Source: a virus. Taken from it: 23,808 bases of DNA. Positions within the stretch are counted from its first letter, which is position 1. The number at the start of each line of letters is the position of its first letter. The translations under genes were made by a program, and so were the position numbers. A model generated the notes under the pieces. That model saw only the letters and a program-made list of their open reading frames with translations. It made no database searches and was not told the DNA's origin. Location: IMG/VR virus record IMGVR_UViG_3300032242_001467, positions 1 through 23,808 of that record; one strand, written 5' to 3'. This document shows positions 5,449 to 20,720 of this stretch, piece after piece.

Positions 5449-6507
5449 TTAATTACTTAAAGGTGCTTTAATTGTTGGATGACAATGTTCGTTATAATAA
5501 TATAACTTAATTGAATCCGGTGTATATGTTTCTAATGTACCATCCAATACTAAATCATCACCATCACCTTTACCAGGCAATAAAAAGTGTGAACGAATTA
5601 ATTGTTCTTTAGCTTGCTCAATATGATTTAAATATAAATGAGTATCACCTAAATTTCCAATCAAATCATCTGATTTCATATTAACTTCCTTTGCTATGAT
5701 TCTTAATAACAAAGCGTATGAAGTGATGTTGAATGGCAATCCTAAAAATGTATCAACACTTCTTTGATTCCACATTAAAGAGATTGCTCGTCTTGGTACT
5801 GGATATAATTCATCAATTTCTTCGTGGTCACCTCTATGAAAATCAAATGGTTCAAATAACCCTTTATATGTTTTAGATGCCAAGTCCAAACGTTCTTCAA
5901 CACTTAACTCTCTTGTATAAATTTGAAATCCATAATGACATGGTGGTAAAACCATTTTATCTAACTCACCTACATTCCAAGCAGATACTATCAATCTTCT
6001 ACTATCAGGATTTGTTTTTAAGTCATTAATCAAAGTAGCTATTTGGTCAATCCATTTTTTCTCACCATCTCCTTTAACATACCAACCTCTCCATTGTTTA
6101 CCATATATTGGTCCTAAGTCACCCCAATATTTTGCGAAGGCATCATCGGTTTTAATTCTTTCAATAAAATCTTTTTGTGATACTGGTGTGTAATGTTGCG
6201 AATGTGTTTCTGCTAAAGTATCTACATAATTTTTATAAGCATCTCCGTTCCAAATGTTACAACCATTTTGGACAAGATACTGAATATTAGTATCACCTCT
6301 TAAAAACCAAAGTAACTCAGTAACAATTGATTTGAAAGGCATCTTCTTTGTTGTAAGAATTGGGAAGTTATGCTCAATATCAGTAAATCTTAAGTTGTAT
6401 CCAAATATTGATTTAGTTCCAGTTCCAGTTCTATCCTTCTTTTCTATTCCGTAATCCAAAATTGTTTGTAATAATGTTTGGTATTGTTTATCTACTTGGT
6501 TTTCCAT
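5449..6507 (-). CDS. thyA: Thymidylate synthase (ThyA)
   Basis: Makes dTMP from dUMP using methylene-tetrahydrofolate. Clear motifs: DRTGTGTKSIFG (25-36, phosphate-binding Arg), PFKSIVTELLWFLRGDTN (57-74), SRRLIVSAWN (169-178), catalytic cysteine in LPPCHYGFQ (C190), NQRSVDTFLGLPFNITSYA, and the C-terminal PTIKAPLSN. At 352 aa it is longer than the usual 264. One extra stretch lies at about 98-130. Another of roughly 45 residues (about 199-243, RELSVEERLDLASK... to PRRAISL) lies between the catalytic Cys and the RS.D dUMP-binding segment. All core residues are present, so it should be active. It sits between two 2OG oxygenase genes with 1-2 base gaps, downstream of the UvsE promoter. Its likely job is raising dTTP supply for replication. 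Confidence 0.97.
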   Translation of the reverse strand: MENQVDKQYQTLLQTILDYGIEKKDRTGTGTKSIFGYNLRFTDIEHNFPILTTKKMPFKSIVTELLWFLRGDTNIQYLVQNGCNIWNGDAYKNYVDTLAETHSQHYTPVSQKDFIERIKTDDAFAKYWGDLGPIYGKQWRGWYVKGDGEKKWIDQIATLINDLKTNPDSRRLIVSAWNVGELDKMVLPPCHYGFQIYTRELSVEERLDLASKTYKGLFEPFDFHRGDHEEIDELYPVPRRAISLMWNQRSVDTFLGLPFNITSYALLLRIIAKEVNMKSDDLIGNLGDTHLYLNHIEQAKEQLIRSHFLLPGKGDGDDLVLDGTLETYTPDSIKLYYYNEHCHPTIKAPLSN

Positions 6508-9605: not shown

Positions 9606-10085
9606 TTAACCAATTGAAATTGTTCGTTTCTTTGGTTTTTCAGGTTCTCTTTTTGGTATTGCTAATTCCAATACACCATCTTCAAATGATGCTTTTACAT
9701 TATCTAAATCAAAGATTTTAGAATCAGCTGTAAAACTTCTTAAGAATGAAGAGCGTTTAACTTCTCTACGAAGATATACTCCACCTTCTTTCTCAGGTGC
9801 TTTAGATGATTTTTCTCCTTTTAGTGTAATTACATCACCATCTACATCGATAGTAATTTGTTCTTTAGTTAAACCCGGAACTTCTGCTACAATCTCAATA
9901 CGGTCATCAAAATTAATGATGTCACATTTTGGATAAGCTGCTTGTTGAAATGCGTTTATACCAATTTCCTTTGATAATTCAGGAAATGATTCTGAAAATA
10001 CTTTATCAAATAAAGTATCCAGTGGTGAGAAGAACTCGTCCCTAAATTGGGGAATAGGGAATCCCTTTTGAATTTGTGCTTTCAT
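9606..10085 (-). CDS. Hsp20/alpha-crystallin small heat shock protein
   Basis: A 159-aa ATP-independent chaperone. The alpha-crystallin domain spans about 52-148: YPKCDIINFDDRIEIVAEVP, then GLTKEQITIDVDGDVITLKG, YLRREVKRSSFLRSF and the conserved ASFEDGVLELAIPK. The C-terminal tail carries the I-x-I motif (ISI in RTISIG) used for oligomer assembly. The N-terminal arm includes FFSPLDTLFDKVF. Hsp20 genes are typical of T4-like phages, where they probably protect virion proteins during assembly. The RBS is AAGGTAAAAATG. An unusually long leader (about 75 bases) with two hairpins lies upstream, and a strong terminator follows. Confidence 0.95.
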   Translation of the reverse strand: MKAQIQKGFPIPQFRDEFFSPLDTLFDKVFSESFPELSKEIGINAFQQAAYPKCDIINFDDRIEIVAEVPGLTKEQITIDVDGDVITLKGEKSSKAPEKEGGVYLRREVKRSSFLRSFTADSKIFDLDNVKASFEDGVLELAIPKREPEKPKKRTISIG

Positions 10086-10113
10086 TTTTACCTTGTTTTT
10101 AAGCGTTAAGTTT

Positions 10114-10160
10114 GTATCTCCTTTTGGATGATACGCCGATATGCTGGTCAGCTCTATCGG
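10114..10160 (-). promoter_or_regulatory. Structured 5' leader of hsp20 (two hairpins)
   Basis: Hairpin 1 has outer arms CCGATA (10136-10141) and TATCGG (10155-10160) and an inner GCT/AGC pair. It sits at the expected 5' end of the transcript. Hairpin 2 has arms GTATC (10114-10118) and GATAC (10130-10134), with an inner CC/GG pair that encloses AGGAG. The start codon is about 30 bases further on with its own AAGG. Other leaders in the window are short and unstructured, so this may be a translational or stability control element. A thermometer role is speculation. Confidence 0.4.
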
Positions 10161-10163
10161 TTT

Positions 10164-10171
10164 ATAAATAT
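10164..10171 (-). promoter_or_regulatory. Candidate late promoter (ATATTTAT) for hsp20
   Basis: The minus strand reads TATATTTATAAACC just before the hairpin leader, in the gap between the HD gene stop (10179) and hsp20. Confidence 0.4.
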
Positions 10172-10178
10172 AATGAAA

Positions 10179-15658: not shown

Positions 15659-17047
15659 TTAGATTCCGATATCCTTAAGACGTAGTATCTCCTTTTCAAT
15701 ATGGCGGTTGTATCCGTTCCATTTAATATTTTCCAACATCCATTTACGATACCATACAGGAATTGATTTAATATCTCTACCTTTGTATTTTCCAAATGTC
15801 ATTATAGTAGGAGTAACAGCATTTGCTAAATCTTGCGGTGATGGCTTACCTTCTATATGTAATCCAATTTCATCCAATGGAATGCCTGTTAATTGTTTCT
15901 TTCCTTCTCCATATAGTTTCCAATCAAATGGAAAATGTTCCGTATCTTTTTTGAAATACAGCTCCTCTACCTTACCAAACCTAGGTACACTACCCACAAA
16001 ATCAATAACCAATCCATCTTTCTTATTAGGATGAATACGAGTAACCCTTCCTACAAATTGATACCACCAGCTTAAAGATGCGGTAGGTCTGCCTGTTATT
16101 ATACAATCTAATTCCGGATGGTCAAACCCTACTGATAGAATAGTAACTTGTACAACTATCCTCAAACGTAGATTCTTAAAATCATCAATAATACGTTCTC
16201 TATCACTATCAGCCATACCACTATATACTGCTTCACAGCTTGGTAACTTTGTGGATAACTCAATAGCTGCTTCAACGGATGGTACTGCTACTAATATTGA
16301 TTTTCGGTTTGGAATATCCGAAATCTTCTTCATTATCTTACCACCAATATCCTGCTGCTTATAAGCCCGTTGTATTGAATCGTCTGTATAATCAGCATAT
16401 GATGAATTGTAAACCAAACCCCCTGTTTCAAAATCATAGGATTCATATACTAATGGTGACCAAAATCCATTTTGTACCATATCTTCGATTTGAGCCACAT
16501 GTATCACCTCTTTGAAGTAATTCCCCTTATTTGATTTTGAAGTGAGCATGACCAGCTTAGAATAAGACCTACCTACATCGTTAAGGTTTGTTTGCAGCTT
16601 TAACGGAGTTGCGGTTAATCCTAATACGTGAGTGATTTTAGCAGCACTTAAAAATCTCCTTAACATTCCACCCGGCTCTCTTGGAAATCTATCACACTCA
16701 TCTATAATAACCTTTTTAATACCCAATGTATTAAATTTATGGGCTATTTTAACAATAGAACCAATTGTAGCGTATGTAACCTCACCTATTTCTTTCTCAC
16801 CCATTGCTGCACTATATATGGATGCTTTACCACCTAAATTGATAAATTTGTTATAGTTTTGCTCTAATAACTCTTTTGATGGTTGAATTACCAATAACTT
16901 TTCACCCAGTTTATGAGCAATATCAGCTATCACAATTGATTTACCAAATGCAGTAGGAGCTACTATAATAGATGGAACGGCTTTCTTTTGTTGAAAGAAT
17001 TCTACACCTTTTTTTACAGGTTCTATTTGATTTTCTCTTAGTTTCAA
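15659..17047 (-). CDS. uvsW: UvsW-like SF2 DNA helicase with C-terminal DUF3820-like domain
   Basis: A 462-aa superfamily 2 helicase. Motif I is PTAFGKS (31-37), motif II DECD (116-119), motif III LTATP (144-148), and motif VI QFVGRVTRIH (330-339). The order and size fit T4 UvsW-type recombination and repair helicases, which unwind branched DNA. After the helicase core a short extra domain, TFGKYKGRDIKSIPVWYRKW (417-436), matches the DUF3820 pattern (fGKYKGk.i..iP..Y..W). I place the start at TTG 17047 (MKLRENQ...): the frame continues upstream without a stop to 17098, but that part lies in the promoter, and the N-terminal KLRENQ begins the Q-motif-like region. No ATG is available after the promoter. 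Confidence 0.85.
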   Translation of the reverse strand: MKLRENQIEPVKKGVEFFQQKKAVPSIIVAPTAFGKSIVIADIAHKLGEKLLVIQPSKELLEQNYNKFINLGGKASIYSAAMGEKEIGEVTYATIGSIVKIAHKFNTLGIKKVIIDECDRFPREPGGMLRRFLSAAKITHVLGLTATPLKLQTNLNDVGRSYSKLVMLTSKSNKGNYFKEVIHVAQIEDMVQNGFWSPLVYESYDFETGGLVYNSSYADYTDDSIQRAYKQQDIGGKIMKKISDIPNRKSILVAVPSVEAAIELSTKLPSCEAVYSGMADSDRERIIDDFKNLRLRIVVQVTILSVGFDHPELDCIITGRPTASLSWWYQFVGRVTRIHPNKKDGLVIDFVGSVPRFGKVEELYFKKDTEHFPFDWKLYGEGKKQLTGIPLDEIGLHIEGKPSPQDLANAVTPTIMTFGKYKGRDIKSIPVWYRKWMLENIKWNGYNRHIEKEILRLKDIGI

Positions 17048-17067
17048 ATTTTTACAATTTATAATTG

Positions 17068-17099
17068 TAAAGATACGAAAAAAAATCCATATATCCAAA
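17068..17099 (-). promoter_or_regulatory. Host-type promoter for the helicase
   Basis: Minus strand -33 TTTG (17099-17096) and -7 TATCTTTA (17075-17068, preceded by TTCG), 20 bases apart. It is back to back with the receptor promoter 40 bases away. Confidence 0.75.
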
Positions 17100-17138: not shown

Positions 17139-17170
17139 TTTGGTAATGTGGAAAAAAATTTGTATCTTTG
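17139..17170 (+). promoter_or_regulatory. Host-type promoter for the TonB-dependent receptor
   Basis: -33 TTTGGTA (core 17139-17142) and a perfect -7 TATCTTTG (17163-17170) with exactly 20 bases between. The transcript would start near 17175, leaving a leader of about 200 bases before the receptor start, much longer than for other genes in the window. Confidence 0.85.
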
Positions 17171-17225
17171 TGAAAGTTTTAACAATAACATAATAGTTAT
17201 TACGGAAGAAAAGAAATTGAAGCTT

Positions 17226-17306
17226 ATGATTACAAAAAAAGAAAATATATCGTTATATACATATAGAAAGAATTCAGCCACTTTAGCAAACAAAGTGGTG
17301 GGATAA
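17226..17306 (+). CDS. Possible 26-aa leader peptide in the receptor mRNA
   Basis: An ATG-started frame (MITKKENISLYTYRKNSATL...) ends at TAA 17304-17306, just before the terminator-like hairpin at 17313. Its last third overlaps the hairpin 17278-17298, so a ribosome on it would melt that stem. There is no run of one amino acid to suggest classic amino-acid attenuation, and the RBS is weak. It may be chance. Confidence 0.3.
   Translation: MITKKENISLYTYRKNSATLANKVVG
17278..17298 (+). promoter_or_regulatory. Hairpin in the receptor leader
   Basis: Perfect 7-bp stem CCACTTT (17278-17284) and AAAGTGG (17292-17298) with a 7-base loop AGCAAAC. It stands 14 bases before the terminator-like hairpin. 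Together they look like a regulated leader (attenuator or riboswitch-like), but I recognise no known RNA family. Confidence 0.5.
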
Positions 17307-17312
17307 CCAAGT

Positions 17313-17339
17313 AGGTGTGGAGTAATTCGCACCTTTTTT
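17313..17339 (+). terminator. Terminator-like attenuator upstream of the receptor gene
   Basis: A 9-bp stem (AGGTGTGGA 17313-17321 with TTCGCACCT 17326-17334, two G-T pairs) closed by a GTAA tetraloop (GNRA type) and followed by TTTTTT, then ATTTT. It lies between the promoter and the gene with no second promoter after it. It either attenuates the receptor or ends a separate RNA of about 165 bases. Confidence 0.65.
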
Positions 17340-17374
17340 ATTTTAACAATTAAACAAACAAAACAAAAAACAGC

Positions 17375-20300
17375 ATGAAAAATCTGAAAAAACTGATGCT
17401 ACTTACGATTATGTTCGCATTCTCATTCGTAGCAAAAGCACAAGAAACTACATCTGAAATCCAAGGAAATGTTTTGGCAGGTAAGAATGGTTTAGCGGGC
17501 GCAACCGTAACAGCTATTCATCAACCAACAGGAACGAAGTACAAAACAAGTGCTCGTGCCGATGGAAGATACAACCTACCAAACCTTAAGATTGGAGGAC
17601 CTTATGTAGTAACAGTATCATTTGTTGGATTCAAAGAAGAATCGCAGAGTGATATTCAATTAGTATTAGGACAAACCTATAAAGCTAATTTTAGTTTAGT
17701 AGAGAAATCAACTTCATTAAAAGAAGTTGTTGTAAGAGCTAACCAAAGTAAAGTATTTAACAATGCTAGAACAGGTACACAAGAGAACTTTAATAGAACA
17801 CAATTGATAGGTTTACCTTCAACTTCTCGTTCTTATAAGGATATCTTAAAATTAGTTCCTACCAACAATAACTTTTCATTTGGTGGTATTAGTTCACAAT
17901 TAAATAACATTACAGTAGATGGAGCTAACTTTAATAACTCTTTCGGATTGGCTAGTGATATTGGTGGACAAACTGGAGCAACGGCTATCTCTTTAGATGC
18001 TATTGACCAAATTCAAGTAAACACTTCTCCTTTTGATGTACGTCAGGGTGGTTTCGCAGGTGGTGCAGTGAATTCGGTAACTCGTAGTGGTACAAACAAA
18101 TCTTTTGGTTCTGTTTATGAGTATTTCAAAAATAAAAACTTACAGGGTTACAAAGTAGGTGATGTTGAATTACCTAAGCAAGATTACACTTATGATTTAA
18201 AAGGTTTCACAGTAGGTGGAGCATTAGTTAAAAATAAGTTATTCTATTTCATTAATGGTGAGCAAGAAAGTAGAGAAGCTCCAGCAACATTATGGACAGC
18301 TAACGATGCTACTCATCCAGCTAATGGTACAACAGTATCTAACGCTAACGCAGCTCAATTAGATGCTTTAAAACAATTCTTAATTACTAAGTATCAATAC
18401 AATCCTGGTGAGTATCAGGGGTATTCTTACAAATCACAATCAAAGAGATTAACTGCTAAAATTGATTGGAACATTAATACTAACAATACATTCACATTGA
18501 AGTATAGTTATTTAAAATCTTCTAACCAAATTCCTCCATCTAATAGTGGTTCGGTTAATAGTACTTATGGTAGAACACCTGGTCAGTACGCATTACCTTT
18601 TAATGGTGCTGGTTATGAAATTAATAACAACGCTAATGTATTTACTGCTGAGTTAAACACTCGTTTCTCAAATAGTATGAACAACAAATTACAAGTTGGT
18701 TATACTCAATTAAGAGATTATAGAAGTGCATTAACTAGTGCTAATTTCCCATTAGTAGATATCTTAGATGGTAACGGGCAACCTTTCACATCTTTTGGAT
18801 ATGAGCAATACACTTATGGTAACAAATTAAATACCGATGTGTATCAATTCAATGATATCCTTTCTATCTATAAAGGAAAGCATGAGATTACATTAGGTAC
18901 TCAAAATTCTTACAAAGAATATTCAAATGGTTTCTCACCTTCTTATCAGGGTGTTTATCGCTTCAATAGCTTAGCTGATTTCTACGCATCTGCGGCAGGA
19001 ACTAAACCAGCTGCTCGTTACGATTTATCATACACATTAGGTGGTTGTGAATTTCCATTAGTAGGACCTAAAGATTTAGAGTTAGGTGTATTCATTCAAG
19101 ACAAATATAGAGCAACCGATAAATTAACTCTTACCTATGGTTTAAGAGCTGATTACACTCAATTCTATAACACATTCTTATACAACCCAGTTGTAGATAC
19201 ATTAACTCAATTCTATAATGGTACACACGCTAACACAGGGTTAGCACCAAATAAAGCAGTTCAATTCTCTCCAAGAGCAGGATTTAACTATGATGTATTA
19301 GGTGACCAAACATTACAAGTAAGAGGTGGTACTGGTTTATTCTCTGGCCCTCCTCCATTTGTTTGGATTAGTAACCAAGCTTCAAATAGTGGTATGGCAT
19401 TATTCGGAAGTATCTCAGCAGGTACTACTTATATGTTCGACCCAAATGTTGATAAGTATAGACCATCTGCTTCAGCAGCATTATCTAAATCTTATTCAAT
19501 CAATGTAACTGACCCTAATTATAAATTTCCGCAAGTATGGAAATCAACTTTAGCAGTTGATAAGAAAATTGCAGGAGGATTTGTTATAACTGCGGAAGGT
19601 ACATATACAAAGAATATTAACGCTTCAGTATTTCAAAATATCGCTTTACCAACAACAGGTTTAATTACCTTAAGTGATGGTAGAATTAGATATCCAAAAA
19701 CTTCAGTATATCCTATTGGTGGCTCAGCATTAGCATCAGCTAGTAATCCATCAATCGGTAACGCTATTTATATGACTAACGCTAACGTTGGTTATGTATG
19801 GACGGGTACTTTACAAATTCAAAAGGTATCTAAGAATTTAGTAACTACATTAGCTTACACTAGACAAGAAGCTAAAGATGCTACAATCAATGGTTCTACC
19901 GCAGGAACAATGTGGGGAGCTAAGCCGGTTGTAGGTGGTGCTAATAATTTTGAAGTAGGTTATTCAAATAACTACTTACCTCATAGAATTGTAGGTTCTT
20001 TGGTTTATGGTAGAGAGTTAATTAAGAATACAAGAACATCAGTAGGTGTTATCTATGAAGGTTCTCCTAATAATGTTGGTTCATCAACTTCATTCATCTA
20101 CAATGGTGATTTAAATGGTGATGGTTACTCAAATGATTTAATGTTCATCCCTAAAGATGCATCTCAAATCAAATTAGTAAACGCAGCAGCAGTAGCTGGT
20201 GTGGCTGATACTCGTACACAAACTGAATTGTGGAATCAATTAGATGCTTTCATTTCAGGCAACCCTTACTTATCTAAACATAGAGGTGAGTTTGCAGAAA

Positions 20301-20638
20301 GACAAGCAATGGTATTACCTTGGGTTCATAGATTAGATTTAAACTTTACGCAAGATGTTTATGTAAATGTTAAAGGTAACAAACATACTGTAAGATTTAC
20401 AGCTGATATCTATAACTTTACTAACTTATTAAATAAAGAGTGGGGTACATATCAATTACCAACAACAGTAGCTCCTTTAACTTTTACAAAGCTAGATGTT
20501 GATGGAAAGACTCCAATATTCTCATTTCCTTATTTAGATGGTAAGAACAAAGTTCCTTATACTAACTCATTCAAAGATGATGTAAGTGGTACTTCTCGTT
20601 ATACTATTCAATTAGGAGTAAGATATTTGTTTAACTAA
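17375..20638 (+). CDS. TonB-dependent receptor, Oar type, with CarboxypepD_reg-like domain
   Basis: A complete 1087-aa outer-membrane protein. Signal peptide 1-22 (LMLLTIMFAFSFVAKA, cleavage before QETT). Residues about 27-112 form a carboxypeptidase-regulatory-like domain (IQGNVLAGKNGLAGATVTA... SARADGRYNLPNLKIGGPY). LKEVVVRA (115-122) is the TonB-box/plug entry. The plug follows to about 240, with LPSTSRSYKDILKLVP, ITVDGANFNN, IDQIQVNTSPFDVRQGGFAG and GAVNSVTRSGTN, typical of Oar-like receptors. The rest is a 22-strand-type barrel, including DLNGDGYSNDLMFIP near 911, ending YTIQLGVRYLFN. Such receptors import bulky substrates with TonB/ExbBD energy. By eye its G+C is higher than the surrounding phage genes, suggesting transfer from a host. 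It has its own promoter, leader and terminator and lies opposite to its neighbours. The substrate is unknown. Confidence 0.93.
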   Translation: MKNLKKLMLLTIMFAFSFVAKAQETTSEIQGNVLAGKNGLAGATVTAIHQPTGTKYKTSARADGRYNLPNLKIGGPYVVTVSFVGFKEESQSDIQLVLGQTYKANFSLVEKSTSLKEVVVRANQSKVFNNARTGTQENFNRTQLIGLPSTSRSYKDILKLVPTNNNFSFGGISSQLNNITVDGANFNNSFGLASDIGGQTGATAISLDAIDQIQVNTSPFDVRQGGFAGGAVNSVTRSGTNKSFGSVYEYFKNKNLQGYKVGDVELPKQDYTYDLKGFTVGGALVKNKLFYFINGEQESREAPATLWTANDATHPANGTTVSNANAAQLDALKQFLITKYQYNPGEYQGYSYKSQSKRLTAKIDWNINTNNTFTLKYSYLKSSNQIPPSNSGSVNSTYGRTPGQYALPFNGAGYEINNNANVFTAELNTRFSNSMNNKLQVGYTQLRDYRSALTSANFPLVDILDGNGQPFTSFGYEQYTYGNKLNTDVYQFNDILSIYKGKHEITLGTQNSYKEYSNGFSPSYQGVYRFNSLADFYASAAGTKPAARYDLSYTLGGCEFPLVGPKDLELGVFIQDKYRATDKLTLTYGLRADYTQFYNTFLYNPVVDTLTQFYNGTHANTGLAPNKAVQFSPRAGFNYDVLGDQTLQVRGGTGLFSGPPPFVWISNQASNSGMALFGSISAGTTYMFDPNVDKYRPSASAALSKSYSINVTDPNYKFPQVWKSTLAVDKKIAGGFVITAEGTYTKNINASVFQNIALPTTGLITLSDGRIRYPKTSVYPIGGSALASASNPSIGNAIYMTNANVGYVWTGTLQIQKVSKNLVTTLAYTRQEAKDATINGSTAGTMWGAKPVVGGANNFEVGYSNNYLPHRIVGSLVYGRELIKNTRTSVGVIYEGSPNNVGSSTSFIYNGDLNGDGYSNDLMFIPKDASQIKLVNAAAVAGVADTRTQTELWNQLDAFISGNPYLSKHRGEFAERQAMVLPWVHRLDLNFTQDVYVNVKGNKHTVRFTADIYNFTNLLNKEWGTYQLPTTVAPLTFTKLDVDGKTPIFSFPYLDGKNKVPYTNSFKDDVSGTSRYTIQLGVRYLFN

Positions 20639-20661
20639 TATTAATTAAATAAAGTATAAAG

Positions 20662-20687
20662 CCCTCATAGAAATATGGGGGTTTTTT
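20662..20687 (+). terminator. Intrinsic terminator after the receptor gene
   Basis: An 8-bp stem (CCCTCATA 20662-20669 with TATGGGGG 20674-20681, one T-G pair) capped by a GAAA tetraloop and followed by TTTTTT and ATTT. It lies 23 bases after the stop. Confidence 0.9.
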
Positions 20688-20688
20688 A

Positions 20689-20720
20689 TTTGGTATATTG
20701 AAAAATATTTCGTATCTTTG
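20689..20720 (+). promoter_or_regulatory. Host-type promoter for the 138-aa gene
   Basis: -33 TTTGGTA (core 20689-20692) and -7 TATCTTTG (20713-20720, preceded by TTCG) with 20 bases between, right after the receptor terminator. The start codon is 15 bases beyond the -7 element. Confidence 0.85.

Follow-up and report, generated by a model that had tools for sequence, protein, structure and literature searches.

A conserved terminator-bearing leader precedes a TonB-dependent receptor gene in Bacteroidota phages and is a candidate translation-coupled attenuator

The stretch of DNA analysed here, called the window throughout, is a 23.8-kb virus record from a Bacteroidota phage. Genes for a helicase, PhoH, thymidylate synthase, Hsp20 and a DUF3310 protein lie on its minus strand, and its sole long plus-strand gene encodes a TonB-dependent outer-membrane receptor preceded by a leader, as follows:

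15659-17098, minus strand: helicase gene upstream of the leader, divergent from the receptor gene
17139-17170, plus strand: Bacteroidota primary-sigma promoter TTTG-N20-TATCTTTG, read directly (TTTG at 17139-17142, TATCTTTG at 17163-17170)
17193-17200, plus strand: ATAGTTAT motif, in the phage leaders 21-23 nt downstream of the -7 box
17222-17228, plus strand: conserved start context of the leader ORF, GYYTATG
17226-17306, plus strand: leader ORF of 26 codons (MITKKENISLYTYRKNSATLANKVVG), with its stop codon TAA at 17304-17306, 6 nt before the terminator stem
17277-17299, plus strand: hairpin 1 (GCCACTTT / AAAGTGGT, loop AGCAAAC), 8 pairs including one G-U, within the end of the leader ORF
17313-17344, plus strand: predicted intrinsic terminator AGGTGTGGA-GTAA-TTCGCACCT, then TTTTTATTTT
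17345-17374, plus strand: translation start region of the receptor, A-rich, unstructured and without a second promoter
17375-20638, plus strand: TonB-dependent outer-membrane receptor gene, 1087 aa (CarboxypepD_reg, Plug, OMP_b-brl_4)
20660-20692, plus strand: intrinsic terminator behind the receptor gene (AGCCCTCATAGAAATATGGGGGTTTTTTATTT)

The intrinsic terminator at 20660-20692 indicates that the receptor is made from a one-gene transcript. Close relatives of the receptor were found in phage contigs of IMG/VR, the largest 274 kb long, and a remote one in two fecal phage fragments only; a DNA-level search of INPHARED returned no phage with a gene similar to the receptor gene. Homologues with 57-71% identity occur in genomes of freshwater Chitinophagaceae and other Bacteroidota, which are therefore the likely hosts of these freshwater phages. 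Elsewhere in the window, a 35-base stretch of the minus strand (2495-2529) is 86% identical to the receptor promoter region, which makes it another strong promoter of this kind. Also on the minus strand, the thymidylate synthase (5449-6507) aligns over its 352 aa to 264 Pfam positions and so appears to contain about 80 inserted residues, and the hsp20 gene (9606-10178) has a 93-nt upstream gap without a TATMTTTG promoter.

A preliminary description of this DNA had reported a promoter, a 7-bp hairpin, a possible 26-codon frame and a GTAA-capped 9-bp terminator with a T run ahead of the receptor gene. All of these are present in the sequence, with the hairpin one pair longer than stated. Transcription is expected, from the promoter consensus, to start at about 17175. 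The terminator pairs 17313-17321 with 17326-17334 around the loop GTAA, and its T run (T6, 17334-17339) is followed by ATTTT; no terminator of this quality (at least 7 bp, at least 4 G-C pairs, T5) arose by chance in 2000 dinucleotide shuffles of the leader. Folding of the 204-nt leader gave z = -2.4, with values of about -3.1 for the terminator alone and about -2.8 for the pre-terminator hairpin. The further claim that no promoter follows the terminator was borne out, as the 35 nt from terminator to receptor ATG contain no TAnnTTTG promoter and the upstream helicase gene is divergent. A second promoter within TTTTTTATTTTAA was considered and rejected, because no TTTG -33 element fits and other terminators carry the same tail.

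Within one clade, all phage records with the receptor have the same architecture; their receptors are 67-97% identical, and they yield 18 distinct leaders besides that of the window, each occurring once per phage genome. Across these leaders the promoter lies 190-209 nt before the receptor ATG, ATAGTTAT is unvaried in 18 of 19 (L094 has GTAGTTAC), and the leader ORF, the conserved counterpart of the 26-codon frame, comprises 22-32 codons (45 in L094). In all 18 other leaders a terminator stands between the sole promoter and the receptor gene, formed by a stem with a GNRA-type or similar loop and then T5-T7, usually TTTTTTATTTT. Hairpin 1 is kept in most leaders with differing sequence (L011) but is weak or missing in three types (L002/L003, L009/L010 and L094). 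The terminator stem shows compensatory changes, and stem and T run are retained in all leaders despite sequence change, with covariation counts that are modest against shuffles; since MAFFT was unable to bring the two terminator types into register, the stems of each type were counted separately. The stems are thus conserved in homologues, one of the two points on which the preliminary description had said its reading should stand or fall.

We trained a covariance model on nine leaders, and it recovered the untrained L002/L003 type (E about 3e-7) and L009/L010 type (E 0.002-0.004), and L094 weakly (E 0.48); in whole phage records as long as 274 kb it never hit more than one copy. An exact pattern scan of 2.9 million viral contigs produced 23 hits, 19 of them receptor leaders; the remaining four were considered as leaders attached to other genes and rejected, being one unrelated phage's coding-end coincidence in four contigs. 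Taken by itself, the ATAGTTAT 8-mer shows no enrichment in the window, and its combination with CYTATG occurs once per phage record, chance hits aside. The more distant phage receptors L092, L093 and L104 lack this leader; those of L097 and L098 have a hairpin with a T run upstream, but behind a co-oriented gene.

Among 41 chromosomal receptor homologues with enough upstream sequence, none has a terminator between promoter and ATG, and in many a promoter-like element sits 30-42 nt ahead of the ATG. The covariance model found no match in the host loci at E<=0.001 and nothing in searches of 123 host-family genomes (six named-locus genomes and 117 of the family of one of them), a survey that had no positive control in cells. 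The proposed covariance search of Bacteroidota receptor leaders therefore succeeded in phages and never in chromosomal receptor genes, which makes the leader a phage element rather than a general leader of TonB receptors. Searches against Rfam families at the gathering score and at E<=5 gave only chance-level matches, the best reaching 18.6 bits against a cut-off of 60. Taken together, these results define an authentic, previously uncatalogued family of phage leaders, which most likely work as a device of a familiar kind in a setting new to it. Two chromosomal receptor homologues of Prevotellaceae/Bacteroidaceae (L055:2840-3000 and L061:2850-3000) have leaders of 146-159 nt that contain short ORFs as well as long inverted repeats with T runs at their ends; these may be independent attenuators.

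The leader ORF is open in all eight lineage representatives, with shuffle probabilities of 0.08-0.23 each and a product of 4e-8, a value that overstates the case because the lineages are related. Its start, frame and stop position are kept; indels within it are multiples of three, those in the UTR are not, and a TTCA holds its reading phase across changes in ORF length. The distance from ATAGTTAT to the ATG varies freely (13, 21, 22, 23, 24 or 25). In most close pairs of leader ORFs nonsynonymous differences equal or exceed synonymous ones and, as judged from these substitutions, the leader peptide is not under purifying selection. That the ORF is kept while its peptide is not conserved suggests that the act of translation matters, not the product. 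In 18 of the 19 leaders a pyrimidine occupies position -3 of the leader ORF start, and the start of the receptor gene is rich in A. In F. johnsoniae, initiation is favoured by adenine at -3, and in Flavobacterium a pyrimidine there is an unfavourable context (PMC6847099), so the default state of the leader may be weak translation.

The leader ORF ends close to the terminator, or in it. Its stop codon lies 0-8 nt before the stem in some leaders, in the 5' arm or loop of the terminator in the L011, L013 and L004/L006/L008 types, and beyond the T run in L094 only. In E. coli, the efficiency of a terminator dropped from ~90% to <10% when it stood 5 bp past a stop codon, and was regained when translation was untied (PMC4824070). 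We had considered the distance from stop codon to terminator as proof of coupling, but a control weakened it: among 24 ordinary gene ends of these phages, 12 likewise have their stop 2-7 nt from a terminator, so that proximity alone does not prove a coupling device. None of the 24 control gene ends has a stop inside or past the hairpin. Convergent gene pairs in L002, L004, L005, L006, L009 and L014 share this close spacing, with stops 2-7 nt from the terminator on both strands, and termination there must tolerate nearby ribosomes.

We posit that the leader attenuates transcription of the receptor gene in cis, operated by leader-ORF translation in the manner of pyrBI, and place the probability of this reading at roughly one half. 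It was reached as the simplest mechanism left by leaders in which we found no shared alternative fold, no regulatory codon run, no conserved core and no Rfam match. An alternative antiterminator fold common to the leader set was sought and none was found; a shared long-range fold was rejected, with pairing significant in L094 and L010 only. As in pyrBI-type systems, the leaders have a terminator between the promoter and the first structural gene, a leader ORF overlapping or abutting it, and no shared antiterminator. Transcription from the host-type promoter would begin at the expected start, and the RNA would carry a weak-start leader ORF ending at or inside the intrinsic terminator, an arrangement conserved among the leaders. 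Were no ribosome behind the polymerase at the end of the ORF, the terminator would fold and a leader RNA of ~165 nt would be freed, with transcription stopping at about 17340. A ribosome that kept up, perhaps by way of a pause at hairpin 1, a candidate RNA-polymerase pause hairpin, would cover the lower stem or open the hairpin, so that polymerase read on and the receptor would be translated from its own A-rich start. Receptor output would then be tied to translation of the leader and not to peptide sequence or a ligand. Premature termination in the leader is likely; relief of the terminator by the ribosome is what we infer from the analogy with pyrBI. To our knowledge, tight transcription-translation coupling has not been established for Chitinophagaceae, and this counts against the coupling reading, as do the weak or missing hairpin 1 of three leader types and the modest covariation counts.

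The main rival, which we consider unlikely, holds that the leader is an independent tiny transcription unit making a short peptide or an RNA of ~165 nt and closed by an ordinary terminator, with the receptor expressed at a constant low level by fixed leaky read-through and nothing sensed. Promoter, ORF and terminator would indeed make a complete small gene, and the close spacing of stop and terminator is common at ordinary genes of these phages. Against this, no product seems to be selected, given the lack of purifying selection on the peptide and an RNA conserved only in short motifs. Several leader types also have the stop inside or past the hairpin, unlike the 24 control genes, and the unit is found before this receptor only. 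The preliminary description had offered regulated receptor expression through an attenuator-like leader or, alternatively, a separate small RNA of about 165 bases. The former is supported by the stems, ORF and terminator kept in homologous phages; the latter gained nothing, as the RNA is conserved only in the promoter, ATAGTTAT, the start-codon context and the terminator.

Control in trans appears quite unlikely. Here a phage or host protein or an sRNA would recognise ATAGTTAT ... GYYTATG or the leader start, and would time receptor expression by modifying the polymerase (put/Q-like antitermination) or by switching initiation at the leader ORF. No RNA segments are better conserved than ATAGTTAT and the start context, both of which precede every structured element, the pyrimidine at -3 is kept in 18 of 19 leaders although unfavourable (PMC6847099), and pairing between the 5' UTR and the pre-terminator region is strong in L094 and L010. 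However, such long-range pairing is significant in only these two of the tested leaders, and the ATAGTTAT motif is not common to other genes of the phages. A bolder proposal, which we hold to be very doubtful, is that ATAGTTAT ... GYYTATG forms a new translation-initiation control element for Bacteroidota mRNAs lacking a Shine-Dalgarno sequence; leader translation would gauge the ribosome pool and switch the receptor on only at a given stage of takeover. Two leader-bearing phages encode a ribosomal protein bS21 of their own, at L119 (G013:95343-95486) and L120 (G003:120216-120359), both above the cut-off of Pfam PF01165. bS21 is reported to affect translation initiation in Bacteroidia (PMC9976891).

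It is very improbable that the stem and T run act as a 5' stabiliser or insulator of the receptor mRNA and not as a terminator in vivo, as the stem with T6ATTT has the same form as terminators behind other genes of these phages and is kept in all leaders while its sequence changes. A classical amino-acid attenuator of the trp/his type, or a ligand riboswitch or T-box, is barely credible: leader ORF, hairpin and terminator are present, and leader-peptide attenuation does occur upstream of amino-acid operons in Flavobacterium psychrophilum (PMC9723704), but the leaders have no alternative antiterminator pairing, no repeated regulatory codon (pooled residues Asn 12.8%, Thr 10.6%, Tyr 7.3%) and no conserved aptamer-like core, and their stop lies <10 nt from the terminator and not the >20 bp of amino-acid attenuators (PMC4824070).

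Translation-coupled attenuation would place the leader closest to pyrBI, in which the leader ORF likewise runs up to or through an intrinsic terminator, no alternative antiterminator exists, the position of the ribosome acts (PMC4824070 and general knowledge), and an upstream hairpin could be a pause site. The differences are that pyrBI belongs to pyrimidine synthesis in enteric bacteria, and here we have a phage gene, a receptor and a start without Shine-Dalgarno; the U-rich UTP-sensing tract is not shown here and there is no sequence homology. The trp/his leader-peptide attenuators, with examples in Flavobacterium (PMC9723704), share a short leader ORF and a terminator, whereas the phage leader is without an antiterminator switch or regulatory codon run and has its stop too near the terminator. 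A TonB-dependent receptor is likewise phage-borne in Mar_Mega_1 and LR745206, as presented in an excerpt of PMC9723777; there it is annotated as SusC and belongs to a marine megaphage, and that excerpt describes no such leader. Among phage elements, the leader also resembles that of satellite phage P4. In P4, premature termination occurs in a leader with an ORF, with effects of translation; P4 differs in using an immunity RNA and in controlling replication genes.

A host-type TonB-dependent receptor in a phage genome prompts one to ask when it is placed on the cell surface, and for what reason. If the proposed mechanism holds, it would constitute translation-coupled attenuation in a Bacteroidota phage whose hosts start translation without Shine-Dalgarno pairing, and would offer a simple reporter for transcription-translation coupling in Bacteroidota, a phylum little studied in this respect. 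The predicted phage-specific gate on receptor expression persists even where receptor bodies have diverged by 30% or recombined. In the best receptor tree the phage genes form two clades, but two independent captures of the receptor by phages were rejected as a conclusion, a single phage clade being compatible with the data (AU p = 0.345). One leader-bearing record, L011, is a mosaic (L011:5700-6300), in which the leader terminator and the first ~100 codons are like those of the window's type and the remainder is like the other phage clade. This suggests that the leader moves with the 5' end of the gene, serving receptor bodies that differ by about 30%.
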